DNA from: Deinococcales bacterium
GTDB lineage: Bacteria; Deinococcota; Deinococci; Deinococcales; JAAFIG01
Assembly: GCA_013298595.1 (NCBI GenBank)
Contig: JAAFIG010000025.1
Location: forward strand, 5,185 to 69,184
Direction: 5' to 3'
Length of the DNA stretch: 64,000 nucleotides
Positions 1-64,000 of the stretch are shown one piece after another. The notes under the pieces were generated by a model. It was not told the origin of the DNA. It was given only the letters and a program-made list of their open reading frames with translations, and searched no databases. Position numbers and translations under genes: made by a program. Numbering within the stretch: the first letter of the stretch is position 1; every line of letters starts with the position of its first letter.

Positions 1-2593
1 GAACTAACTGTTTTTGTGTGTCTTTGACAGGCAAAGATTGGCAACGATGCAGGGTTTGTAAACGCACATCGGGGTCTGGGTGTTGGAAAAGTTGCGCCAG
101 TAAACCAATCAGTTTCTGCTGAGCATCCTCGGACAATCTTTCTACGGGAATCCGAATCACACCATCGGCAATGGCAGCATCGGGGTTTTGGGCAGCTTCT
201 TGAAAAATCTGCCAAGTGATCGTGTTTTCGGGGTAATCCCATAAGCCACGCAGCAATGCCACCCGCACATCGCGGTGCAAATTCTTTGGATACATCTCGA
301 GTAAAAAAGTCAGCGCGGTTTGGCTGCGAAGCTCACCAACCAAACGCAATACCTCTTTTGCCACAGTGACACGTTCGTACTTCATGGCTTGCAAAAACGC
401 AAATGCTTTGGCTGGCATCATTTTTAAGAACAACCGCCGCAGGGCATAAATCGCCACTCGAGCACGATCATCTTCTAAAGCACTCAGTAAAGGCTCGAGT
501 CCGCGTTGCTCATCAAGCCGACCCAAGGCACGCAAGGCGGCATCTCGGATGGCAAGGCGCGAATTTTTAACATCGGCTAAACGTTCGATTGTGCTGGCAG
601 CCGCGTTGGGAATGCTGGCAAGTTGCACCAAGACTTGCAAAATTGCGGGAATATCACGATCAGAATCTCGAGCCACTTCGTCCAGTGTTTGTACAAAAGT
701 GCTTTGCTGTTGCGGCTGCCAACGAAAAAATCCTTGGCTGATTGGTAATACAAAACGTGTTTTTCCAGTACTGAATTTACCTTTGTAAGCTTGTCTGCCC
801 AAAAATGGGGTCAGTAAATCTTGGCGGTGTAAATGCAAATGCTGATAGACCATCGCCACAACTGCCCAGCTCTGATCTTTTTGCAGTAACTCAGGCACAA
901 GCCGATGAAAACGAGTGTGGTCGTGTTTTGCCAGCAACCATAAGGCTGTTTGGGCTGTGCCTGCTTGGGCTGTGCGTACCAGATTTTCGGCAAGCTCGAG
1001 AAAATCGGGTAGCACCCGCAAACGCTTACCCAACTGCATAAAAACATTGATGATATGATGATCGCGCTCTCGAGATTGCCATGCTTTGAGAACAGGAAGT
1101 AATGCCTTTGCAATAACTTGAGCTTGGTTATCCGAAATAATCTGCCCAATGCCATACATGTTGATACTGCCGCGCTCCTTGACCAATGTACCAATCCATT
1201 GCGCTGCCCACAGAGCATGAAACGGCAACAAACGAATGACGATTCGCTCGGCAGCTGCGGCTGTCGAATGCGATAAATCAGCGGCGTTGATGGCATCTTG
1301 TAACACCAACCCCAAAGACTCGAGCTGCGAAGATTGCCATGCCGCAGGTGGTAAATCGGCAATGGCATTTAACATCACTAAGCACACAGGGTCTTGTTCG
1401 TTTTTACGAAAACGCGCAAACTCGAGTACAGCATCGTATTTTGTTTGATCAAATTGGGCTGTGCGAATTTGATTTGGTACAGCTGCCACTCGGTATTCTG
1501 GTTTTGGATATTTCAGTATTGGCTCGAGCAAAGGCTTGGCTTCATCCCAACCCAACAAACCAGCATACTGAACCCGTTCCAATGGGCGCGTACTGAGGTT
1601 TGGATGCTCGAGATGACGTTTGGCTTCTTGTTCCCGAATCTCTTGAGGGAGTAACCGCAATGTACTGGCAGCAATAAAACCTTGTGCATCTGCCCACGAA
1701 CCACGAAAAGCCGCAAAAATAGGCACTCGAGCCGAAGCTGAAAAACGTTGTAAAAAATCTTCCAGATTTGTCAATGTTTTTGCTTGCTGGGCTTGTAAGC
1801 CAAGCACCTGTTGCAAAGATAAACGATGCGCCACACTAGAATAATCAAGTTGCATGACCTCTTCGGACTCGAGTTGAAAAATTGCTATTTCTTGTGGGCA
1901 AATACTAAGCAAAGGTTGTAAGCGCAAATTTGACAAGGCTGTGCTACGACGAATCGCTCGTAATAATTGTAAAACTCGAGTGGCTGAAAAAAATGCAAGC
2001 TGAGGTAATACTTGATTCACTTGCCAGACCAAACGTGGATTTAATTCAGATGCTTGATTCGCTTTTTCCTCGAGCCAATCAGCAAACAGACCTGCATGAT
2101 TCCGAGCCAAACGCGACCATTCAAACGAGGCAGCTAACTCCATTAAATCAAGATGTTTTTTAACCACCTCTGCCGAAGCAAAACCGATGATCGCTGTAGC
2201 ATCTCGAGTATTGCCAGCTCGCAGCAATTGCTCGAGGTACGCATCAGCAATTGCTGTCACAGTCCCCCGACGTTCAAAGGTGTACAACAAAACCAAACGT
2301 AGCTTGGCAGGCAATAAATCCAGCACGCCAAGCACATCCTCTGCTGACAACACCACAGGCGCTAAAGAAACCGCTAAACCCCGCACAAATTCAGAAGCAT
2401 CCTGCAAACCACGCAATACCCGTGCCACATTTTTACTCGAGAAACACGAAGCAAGCGCTAAACGCCGCTGATAGACATTGCCAGCATCAAAGGCTAACAA
2501 TACCGCTTCATCAGGGTTTTTGCCGTACTCGACCATCAAACGCATACGATCCTGATGACATAACGGCTCGAGTTTTGCTAACAAATTTTGCAT
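1..2593 (-). CDS. HEAT-repeat protein, 3' end beyond window
   Basis: Reading the minus strand from the ATG at 2593 gives an uninterrupted frame of more than 860 codons that runs off the left edge. The protein is almost wholly alpha-helical, Leu/Ala-rich and cytosolic in character, with no signal peptide or membrane segment. The C-terminal third contains recognisable HEAT-like helical pairs, for example RDAALRALGRLDEQRGLEPL followed by LEDDRARVAIYALRRL and then VRVALLRGLWDYP. HEAT solenoids usually act as protein-binding scaffolds, but no partner is indicated. An in-frame TAA lies upstream at 2627-2629, which limits the start. No strong ribosome site is seen. The next gene upstream (DUF4406) ends 33 bases before it on the same strand. 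Reading frame certain; function not assigned. Confidence 0.8.
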   Translation of the reverse strand, partial: MQNLLAKLEPLCHQDRMRLMVEYGKNPDEAVLLAFDAGNVYQRRLALASCFSSKNVARVLRGLQDASEFVRGLAVSLAPVVLSAEDVLGVLDLLPAKLRLVLLYTFERRGTVTAIADAYLEQLLRAGNTRDATAIIGFASAEVVKKHLDLMELAASFEWSRLARNHAGLFADWLEEKANQASELNPRLVWQVNQVLPQLAFFSATRVLQLLRAIRRSTALSNLRLQPLLSICPQEIAIFQLESEEVMQLDYSSVAHRLSLQQVLGLQAQQAKTLTNLEDFLQRFSASARVPIFAAFRGSWADAQGFIAASTLRLLPQEIREQEAKRHLEHPNLSTRPLERVQYAGLLGWDEAKPLLEPILKYPKPEYRVAAVPNQIRTAQFDQTKYDAVLEFARFRKNEQDPVCLVMLNAIADLPPAAWQSSQLESLGLVLQDAINAADLSHSTAAAAERIVIRLLPFHALWAAQWIGTLVKERGSINMYGIGQIISDNQAQVIAKALLPVLKAWQSRERDHHIINVFMQLGKRLRVLPDFLELAENLVRTAQAGTAQTALWLLAKHDHTRFHRLVPELLQKDQSWAVVAMVYQHLHLHRQDLLTPFLGRQAYKGKFSTGKTRFVLPISQGFFRWQPQQQSTFVQTLDEVARDSDRDIPAILQVLVQLASIPNAAASTIERLADVKNSRLAIRDAALRALGRLDEQRGLEPLLSALEDDRARVAIYALRRLFLKMMPAKAFAFLQAMKYERVTVAKEVLRLVGELRSQTALTFLLEMYPKNLHRDVRVALLRGLWDYPENTITWQIFQEAAQNPDAAIADGVIRIPVERLSEDAQQKLIGLLAQLFQHPDPDVRLQTLHRCQSLPVKDTQKQLV

Positions 2594-2626
2594 TGGTACA
2601 GCATAAAGCAAAAAGATTTGTAGTGT

Positions 2627-2992
2627 TTACGTAAGTATCGGTAACTCCTCGAGACTGTAATACACAGGGATACCACGTGCTAATGCAATGCGTACATCAT
2701 TATCTGCGCCTTTGGAAACGCTTGGCAAACGCAGCACCGCTTGGCAGTGCTCGAGCAAACGATGCGCTGTTGGATAAACAATTTCCTCGTACAACGAATC
2801 ACCGACTTTTGTTGAACCAGCCACCTCGAGCAATGGCAAGGCAACCCATTCACCAATCATTGGGATATGCCCACGACGAAAAACCTGTAAGGCACTTTCC
2901 TCGAGCACCCGCAAATTCGCCCGCATTTTGACAGGATCATCGTTGGTGCCAGAACGGTACGCACCTGCTACCAAAATCAACATCGGTTTCAT
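2627..2992 (-). CDS. DUF4406 / nucleoside deoxyribosyltransferase-like protein
   Basis: 121 residues. The N-terminus MLILVAGAYRSG resembles the first strand and loop of the nucleoside 2-deoxyribosyltransferase fold, as in DUF4406 proteins. The second half has ALPLLEVAGSTKVGD, then a Leu-rich helix leading to LRLPSVSKGADNDVRIALARGIPVYYSLEEL, the usual end of this family, in which the residues around S-x-G-A-D-x-D/E line the pocket. Family members are thought to bind or process nucleosides, but the substrate here is not readable. It lies just upstream of the HEAT-repeat gene on the same strand and is divergent from the DeoR gene, with 100 bases between the two starts. Confidence 0.7.
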   Translation of the reverse strand: MKPMLILVAGAYRSGTNDDPVKMRANLRVLEESALQVFRRGHIPMIGEWVALPLLEVAGSTKVGDSLYEEIVYPTAHRLLEHCQAVLRLPSVSKGADNDVRIALARGIPVYYSLEELPILT

Positions 2993-3080
2993 AAAACCTC
3001 TTTTCTGCTGTCACCAGCTCCTCGAGCATACGTGCAAAAACGTGTAATGTCAAGAAAAAACGTGCAACATCATGAAGTAG

Positions 3081-3086
3081 TACAAT
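3081..3086 (+). promoter_or_regulatory. -10 box (TACAAT) of leaderless DeoR-family gene
   Basis: TACAAT ends 6 bases before the ATG at 3093. This TANNNT-to-start spacing recurs before many genes here and implies transcription starting at or next to the start codon. No clear -35 box is seen. Confidence 0.55.
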
Positions 3087-63335: not shown

Positions 63336-63644
63336 TACCCCTTGTTTTAGTAGACTTTGTAATACTTTGGATTTCCCATTCTTCCATTCATTTCAATGAT
63401 AATAAAGTGGAACTGGTGAACAAGCTGAACCGTGGTTACCGAACCAAAGAAAAAGCGATAGCAACAAAAAGTTTAGCCAACTAGATGGAAATTTCATGTG
63501 GTCAATTGTATCTTGACTTGAAACCAACCCAGCAAAAACTCTTTAAAAGTGTTGTCCTAAAATTCACCTTGGAATAGTTCTTAATATTTTGTATATATAC
63601 CTAAGTATAAAATTATTTTCTGTGTGGTTCGTGCCATCTGCCCT
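63336..63644. other. AT-rich spacer without CTCGAG
   Basis: About 310 bases between the orphan gene and the tuf promoter. A short open frame on the plus strand (about 60 codons, 63299-63484) has no ribosome site and no recognisable product. No repeat or RNA gene is seen. Confidence 0.5.
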
Positions 63645-63672
63645 TTGCAAAACCCCTTAATTATGCTACATT
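63645..63672 (+). promoter_or_regulatory. Candidate tuf promoter
   Basis: TTGCAA (63645-63650), 16 bases, TACATT (63667-63672). It is followed by a leader of about 200 bases, unlike the leaderless genes nearby. Confidence 0.5.
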
Positions 63673-63874
63673 CCTCGAGCCTTGCCCGATTTGGGCGCGA
63701 TTTGTCGGTAATAACCAACGCTTCATCACGTTGGTGAGTTGTTCTGAGCTAAAAACTCTTCAATAACTCGACAAGCGGATAGGACATCTTTTCTCACGAC
63801 AGTGAGACTCGAGGAACGCGCAAGCCATGCTAAGGCATGACATTGAGACGGCTCGAGATGGAGGTAAGAGTTAT
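63673..63874 (+). promoter_or_regulatory. Structured 5' leader of tuf
   Basis: About 200 bases with several small hairpins, for example CCAACG...CGTTGG (about 63717-63736), CTCAC...GTGAG and GCCATGC...GGCATG. It ends with GGAGG (63860-63865) before the ATG. It may hold autoregulatory or ribosomal-protein-like control; no known riboswitch or tRNA is recognised. Confidence 0.4.
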
Positions 63875-64000
63875 ATGGCTAAAGCTACGTTTGAACGCAC
63901 AAAACCGCACGTCAACGTCGGAACCATCGGACATGTTGACCACGGCAAAACCACCCTCACCGCTGCGATCACATTCACCGCAGCCGCCGCTGATCCGAGC
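63875..64000 (+). CDS. tuf: Elongation factor Tu, 5' end only
   Basis: The first 42 codons, running off the right edge. [33 protein letters not shown] is the EF-Tu N-terminus with the P-loop GHVDHGKT. It delivers aminoacyl-tRNA to the ribosome as a GTPase. The wording after the P-loop (FTAAAADPS) is close to Thermus and Deinococcus EF-Tu. A strong GGAGG precedes the ATG. fusA does not lie immediately upstream, so this is either a second tuf copy or a rearranged str region. Confidence 0.97.

Follow-up and report, generated by a model that had tools for sequence, protein, structure and literature searches.

CTCGAG is a highly iterated palindrome with lineage-specific dialects in the Deinococcota

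The window and its CTCGAG sites

The stretch of DNA analysed here (the window, positions 1..64000) is part of G000, a 4.58-Mb draft genome of a Deinococcales bacterium with a GC content of 45%, and the element under study is the hexamer palindrome CTCGAG, of which counting finds 403 copies in the window at a mean spacing of 158 bp. Genes on both strands carry the sites, as do spacers; the densest 3-kb stretch (2001..5000) holds 29 of them and the sparsest part (44001..48000) seven in each of the 3-kb frames that begin at 44001 and 45001. A rare close cluster of three copies, at 12 and 19 bp spacing, lies in a spacer at 52573..52609. An initial annotation of the window had counted 22 copies in positions 1-3000, which is exact (22 starts, the last at or before 2900), and had reported the word from genes of both strands, spacers and terminators; we find it in all three codon phases, in spacers and in terminator-like hairpins.

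The same annotation had taken the DNA to be apparently that of a member of the Deinococcota. This placement is supported by the best match of its malate dehydrogenase, 1iz9 (the Thermus thermophilus enzyme), and by the presence of the cultured and CTCGAG-enriched Meiothermus ruber (G025) in the phylum set, 111 genomes in which CTCGAG was counted. Within this set, f1 denotes the window's family, with four genomes, and f2 the next family, which includes g11, G008 and G004; the genomes of f1 and g11 are 58-94% complete. Detailed counts are based on the window and at least 400 kb of G000 stretches (464 kb for Markov and palindrome work), totals are whole-genome pattern counts, and the coding/non-coding split of G000 derives from simple open reading frame (ORF) calls. 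Enrichment among the phylum genomes was compared by sampled observed/expected (O/E) ratios. Control loci were 64 contigs of unrelated genomes from distant phyla, among the matches listed in a TrpE scan of GTDB contigs.

Abundance, coding context and effect on proteins

The iteration of CTCGAG in this genome is beyond doubt, and the word behaves like a highly iterated palindrome (HIP). The copies in the window compare with a mean of 6.4 and a maximum of 16 in dinucleotide shuffles of the 64,000 bases, and the whole of G000 holds 27,159 copies (5,930 per Mb) versus 15 of the reversed control GAGCTC. Across the 464 kb the word lies 59-fold above an order-1 Markov expectation, and 72-99-fold above expectation once the sites are masked from the background, a gross genome-wide excess of the kind (O/E of tens or more) that marks the HIP class. 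A count of all 64 hexamer palindromes against the Markov model, proposed as a check in the initial annotation, left CTCGAG as the only strongly enriched word, with a runner-up at 1.6-fold, and in the control loci the CTCGAG ratio had a median of 0.64 and a maximum of 1.9. Codon use and dinucleotide composition, which the annotation had allowed for as an explanation, do not account for the count, as the excess persists over the Markov model and the non-coding density is equal; nor, in our judgement, do other palindromes show the same excess in related GC-matched genomes. Viral contigs were scanned for dense CTCGAG triples, and the matches listed were short or GC-rich, none being equally rich over a long stretch.

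The bias targets DNA rather than codons, the density of CTCGAG in G000 being 5.84 per kb in coding and 5.96 per kb in non-coding DNA; presence in both is a feature of the HIP class. The coding sites are divided among the codon phases as 1334, 591 and 460, with phase 0 holding most. Outside the sites CTC and GAG are minority codons (9% and 20%, respectively), and 68% of Leu-Glu pairs are encoded through CTCGAG, compared with 1.8% expected from codon use outside the sites. The corresponding values are 64% versus 4.0% for [SPTA]-Arg followed by a codon starting with G, and 36% versus 1.3% for X-Ser-[Ser/Arg].

The strength of this bias is such that amino acids have been replaced. That CTCGAG has altered proteins follows from the over-representation of Leu-Glu itself (2.41 times expectation in G000, with Glu-Leu at 0.96), two thirds of the pairs being encoded via the palindrome. 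The Leu-Glu excess is 2.2-2.8 in three relatives and 1.1-1.3 in little-enriched or unenriched genomes such as G004, G041 and G011, and scaling the excess in G000 to the whole genome suggests of the order of 10,000 additional Leu-Glu pairs. The TrpE gene (17460..18914, + strand) contains 10 CTCGAG sites, and some of its CTCGAG-coded Leu-Glu pairs (e.g. at gene offset 543) are RE, KA, ES, QD or RS in the relatives. The long gene of a PEGA-domain protein (25554..26993, + strand) is nearly site-free, with one CTCGAG, probably because its peptide gives few permissive places. Three further site-poor stretches, L066/L067 (G000:C1:36545-42130), L076 (G000:C1:224681-225551) and L084 (G000:C23:88280-94110), encode putative type IV pilins or prepilin-like proteins and cytochrome oxidase or bc-complex proteins, as named from sequence, and are probably also site-poor through few permissive peptides.

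Strictness, turnover and spacing of sites

Enrichment falls steeply with distance from the word: in the 464 kb, exact matches stand at 72-99 times expectation, words with one mismatch at 1.4-1.55 times and words with two at 0.93-0.96 times. One-base deviations are chiefly transitions and occur at all positions; a 5-methylcytosine signature at a single cytosine was looked for and not seen, both cytosines having a similar transition excess. When sites of G000 were aligned to G001 (~69% identity), 87 of 142 were intact (61%), as opposed to 19% of control hexamers of the same GC content, and one-mismatch states made up five of the 142 (3.5%) versus 32% for the controls. Alignments to G002 and G003 point the same way, a site in an aligned relative being usually either intact or lost via two or more changes, with one-mismatch states scarce. 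When, conversely, the relatives' sites were aligned to G000, one-mismatch states were somewhat more frequent (15 of 158 for G001) and mainly of the C-to-T type, and site maintenance may therefore be slightly weaker in the AT-richer G000. Both the mismatch ratios and the turnover would follow from a reader that is strict for the hexamer and exerts a log bias of ~4-5.

Site placement is roughly Poisson on a large scale, and at short range the sites exclude each other below ~25 bp and are independent beyond ~60 bp. Pair density relative to expectation is 0.22 at 6-12 bp, 0.46 at 12-18 bp, 0.69 at 18-30 bp and ~1 beyond 90 bp. The occupancy of Leu-Glu pairs as a function of distance to the nearest site, which controls for protein sequence, is 0.21 at 6-12 bp, 0.37 at 12-18 bp, 0.53 at 18-24 bp, 0.68 at 24-30 bp, 0.62-0.72 up to 80 bp and ~0.8 at 80-200 bp, and two further peptide classes agree. 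Coding site pairs at 6-12 bp number 17 versus 65 simulated, and the exclusion is repeated in three relatives, where it is weaker beyond 12 bp. Generic hairpin avoidance was considered as the cause and is not supported, since 6-bp inverted repeats of the ordinary kind show no depletion over this range. Neither a preferred spacing nor a 10-bp periodicity was seen, the only period being the codon period of 3. Independence beyond ~60 bp argues against any role for which one site per kilobase suffices.

Distribution and dialects across the phylum

CTCGAG is the core of a phylum-wide set of dialects with lineage-specific flanks. The four f1 genomes contain ~6 copies per kb at GC contents of 45-60%, and f2 has 6.2-7.7 per kb in g11, 3.6 in G008 and 0.3 in G004. 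Sampled O/E ratios are 17-59 in f1, 28-51 in g11, 6-9 in G008, 7-14 in Meiothermus-like genomes, 3-8 in several others and 0.7 in G004, and non-coding DNA shows the same pattern of enrichment. The initial annotation had described an exact six-base core with freely varying flanks: the six bases are indeed strict, but the flanks are only nearly free in f1, where CCTCGAGG is depleted (in G000 it stands at 0.35 of expectation and a following G is under-used), and they are constrained in relatives. G012 and the Meiothermus-like genomes have CTCGAG flanked by C or G, CCTCGAGG makes up 46% of the sites of G008 and ~80-90% of those in g7, a genus with 2.0-2.4-Mb genomes that appears to be Thermus-like, and a GCTCGAGC dialect is found in G058, G005, G103 and G104/105. 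The two flanks are chosen independently in most genomes (observed/independent ~1). As in the HIP class, derivative words (CCTCGAGG, GCTCGAGC) occur together with sporadic loss, seen as near absence in G004. In g7 (L266, L476, L477) TCGA is avoided, at 0.21 of expectation, except within the iterated CCTCGAGG.

About 20 of the 64 hexamer palindromes are below 10% of expectation in the 464 kb of G000. GGCC occurs 10 times versus 1463 expected (and is absent from the window), CCGG 110 times versus 1061, and CCGCGG, GGCGCC, GAGCTC, TTCGAA, TGCGCA, CTTAAG and ATGCAT are each at or below 4% of expectation; non-palindromes are hardly affected. The avoidance of GGCC holds in G001 and G003 and is far less in G002 or G012. 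The window also contains interspersed palindromic repeats resembling repetitive extragenic palindromes (REP), with cores GGGCGACCACAAGGGTCGCCC and GTAGGGGCGGGGCTTG, at 3901-7941, 10521-10548, 19340-19509, 21203-21230 and 59007-59034, some of them inside the ORF at 19041-19733, which encodes a Y1 transposase (IS200-like, RAYT-type). Another repeat, near 18980, has dozens of copies in G001 and G003.

Methyltransferases, nucleases and repair genes

Members of five methyltransferase families (PF00145, PF07669, PF01555, PF02384 and PF02086) were searched for in enriched and unenriched genomes and compared. Each genome carries several, mostly unrelated methyltransferases, some of which adjoin nuclease genes (e.g. 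a NotI-type gene beside L049). The C5 methyltransferase L001, present in G000, G001 and G012, was rejected as the agent, being absent from the equally enriched G002 and G003.

Genes for an XhoI-type nuclease (PF04555) were found only in three g10 genomes (G018, G042 and G048), with a broken copy in G009. The g10 genomes with the gene hold 1390-1947 copies of CTCGAG, versus 3640-4718 in sisters without it (G010, G014 and G030). Presence of the gene within one genus thus accompanies two to three times fewer sites, a natural experiment on avoidance; this is the outcome expected of restriction avoidance and the opposite of palindrome iteration. The signature of a restriction-modification target, an avoided site with its cognate nuclease present, is not what CTCGAG shows. 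Among repair genes, mutL (10537..12264, + strand), with an endonuclease-type motif DQHAAHERILFE read from its translation, is a mismatch-repair gene that would be relevant to a repair hypothesis, as a candidate link to CTCGAG only. Two putative endonuclease genes of the Uma2 family, which is widespread in cyanobacteria, lie at 48600-49199 and 60583-61146.

Relation to known systems

HIP1 (GCGATCGC) is present at 300-2,700 copies per Mb, is accompanied by alternate HIPs, is associated with methyltransferases and has been explained by a model of methylation-directed repair (Elhai 2015, PMC4390886; CTCGAG is not mentioned there). The initial annotation likened CTCGAG to HIP1, and most features of the HIP class are indeed found, apart from a predicted cognate methyltransferase in each genome with the word, for which the five families gave no shared ortholog; this is a HIP-like system in a second phylum. 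Like cyanobacterial HIP1 and the alternate HIPs, CTCGAG is a short palindrome that far exceeds expectation throughout the genome, inside genes and outside them, its sister lineages have derivative words with changed flanks, and it has been lost sporadically. Unlike HIP1, it is another word in another phylum, at 5,930 per Mb (~7,700 in G016), twice the highest density reported (2,700); in f1 it has six strict bases with near-free flanks, and a conserved cognate methyltransferase was not found in the five Pfam families. Deviations from HIP1 are biased to the first or last base, whereas those from CTCGAG are not concentrated at the ends. Words that replace HIP1 have a GC content of at least 75%, a descriptive feature (Elhai 2015), compared with 67% for CTCGAG and 75% for CCTCGAGG and GCTCGAGC.

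An orphan CTCGAG methyltransferase is known from Nocardia, where its sites cluster near dnaA (Blow et al. 2016, PMC4752239). That enzyme reads the same word outside restriction, but the sites described here are genome-wide; an ortholog was not identified, the Nocardia sequence itself not being part of the comparison. XhoI/PaeR7I also recognises CTCGAG, but f1 and f2 lack the XhoI-type nuclease, and the g10 genomes that carry it have fewer sites. DNA uptake sequences (DUS) and uptake signal sequences (USS) are, like CTCGAG, dispersed words spread by a bias, but they are non-palindromic, mismatch-tolerant and spaced at kilobases. The enriched near-matches and kilobase spacing of an uptake sequence are not found for CTCGAG. 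Literature searches combining HIP with Deinococcus, CTCGAG with Thermus or Meiothermus, and CCTCGAGG with Thermus returned no earlier description of the iteration, in a coverage that mostly excludes subscription papers.

Proposed mechanism and alternatives

The evidence best supports a fixation bias that a strict hexamer reader exerts at each site, perhaps through methylation-coupled repair. Fixation would favour CTCGAG over its one-mismatch neighbours wherever the sequence tolerates it, the agent presumably being a protein that recognises the hexamer exactly and covers some 15-25 bp, much as modification or restriction-like enzymes of type II do. As in Elhai's model for HIP1, the reader would act on a heteroduplex or newly replicated site that is one base off and resolve it to CTCGAG, so that through repair, or methylation-coupled repair, gains would be kept and losses reversed; the bias is weakened when another site lies within ~25 bp. 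A repair-type bias towards CTCGAG falls, in our estimate, just short of an even call.

Several points weigh against this mechanism. No methyltransferase ortholog in the five Pfam families is common to all enriched genomes, although enzymes of other families, genes in the missing parts of the incomplete f1 and g11 genomes, or non-orthologous enzymes of the same specificity would escape such a comparison, and the orphan CTCGAG methyltransferase put forward in the initial annotation is so far not supported. A gamma-class methyltransferase shared by many Meiothermus-like genomes, some of f3 and G009 has a distribution that mismatches the enrichment: f1 and f2 lack it, and M. ruber has no full-length copy, though f1 and M. 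ruber are enriched. The XhoI-type nuclease is likewise missing from the enriched f1 and f2 genomes. In non-coding DNA depletion of close pairs is seen only at 6-12 bp (4 versus 12.6), and exclusion is not clear beyond 12 bp; terminator-like hairpins with two CTCGAG arms exist there and add close pairs. Moreover, the equilibrium is the same under selection as under biased repair, and sequence alone cannot tell the two apart.

The main rival is additive selection, in which each CTCGAG would bind an abundant nucleoid-associated or chromosome-organising protein for a small benefit per bound site, two sites closer than the footprint being unable to be bound together. The protein-sized exclusion at short range (compatible with steric exclusion), the independence beyond it and the equal coding and non-coding densities suit this explanation. 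Known nucleoid proteins, however, tolerate mismatches, while one-base-off words are hardly enriched here; a benefit would be needed at each of 27,000 sites, no candidate protein is at hand, and the sites lack preferred spacing or 10-bp periodicity. We therefore consider it possible but, on balance, unlikely. The initial annotation had also suggested a DNA-uptake or recombination signal, by which imported fragments with CTCGAG would be preferentially taken up or recombined, as with the DUS of Neisseria and the USS of Haemophilus. An uptake bias would be expected to spread a word through coding and non-coding DNA alike, and Thermus is naturally competent, but one site per fragment would be enough and the benefit should saturate over kilobases, whereas the sites are independent beyond ~60 bp. 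Near-matches, moreover, show hardly any enrichment, and a density of 6 per kb greatly exceeds that of known uptake signals; this explanation fits poorly and is improbable.

More improbable still is a side effect of restriction-modification, with CTCGAG left surviving by a CTCGAG system or by avoidance of other palindromes. In its favour, avoidance extends to many other palindromes and the methyltransferases of these genomes are numerous and varied, but avoidance elsewhere cannot lift CTCGAG 59-99-fold over its own expectation, and the word is rarer where the XhoI-type gene is present. Codon or amino-acid usage, by which GC-rich genes would prefer the codon pair CTC-GAG for Leu-Glu, matches the predominance of phase 0 and explains part of the count in some high-GC relatives. 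For the window's family it is refuted by the equal non-coding density, by the same occupancy excess in the two other phases, and by a GC content of 45% with CTC and GAG as minority codons outside the sites, and we give it next to no credence.

Implications

Taken most broadly, the results may reflect an ancient, phylum-wide molecular drive on CTCGAG by a strict reader that is not a conserved methyltransferase, with a changing flank dialect, exclusion of sites within two to three helical turns and ~10,000 Leu-Glu pairs rewritten per member of one family, a reading that we regard as tentative and rather less than probable. Four findings go beyond the initial annotation: dialects throughout the phylum, altered proteins, mutual exclusion of closely spaced sites and avoidance of most of the other palindromes. 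What leads genomes to build up highly iterated palindromes has been an open question since HIP1 was found in cyanobacteria, and a second phylum with another word, a higher density, dialects and an exclusion rule separates general features from cyanobacterial ones. Milder forms in cultured members, such as the type strain of M. ruber, make the mechanism testable in the laboratory, and Thermus is genetically tractable. The effect on protein sequence also needs to be considered when these proteomes are interpreted or used to infer phylogenies.

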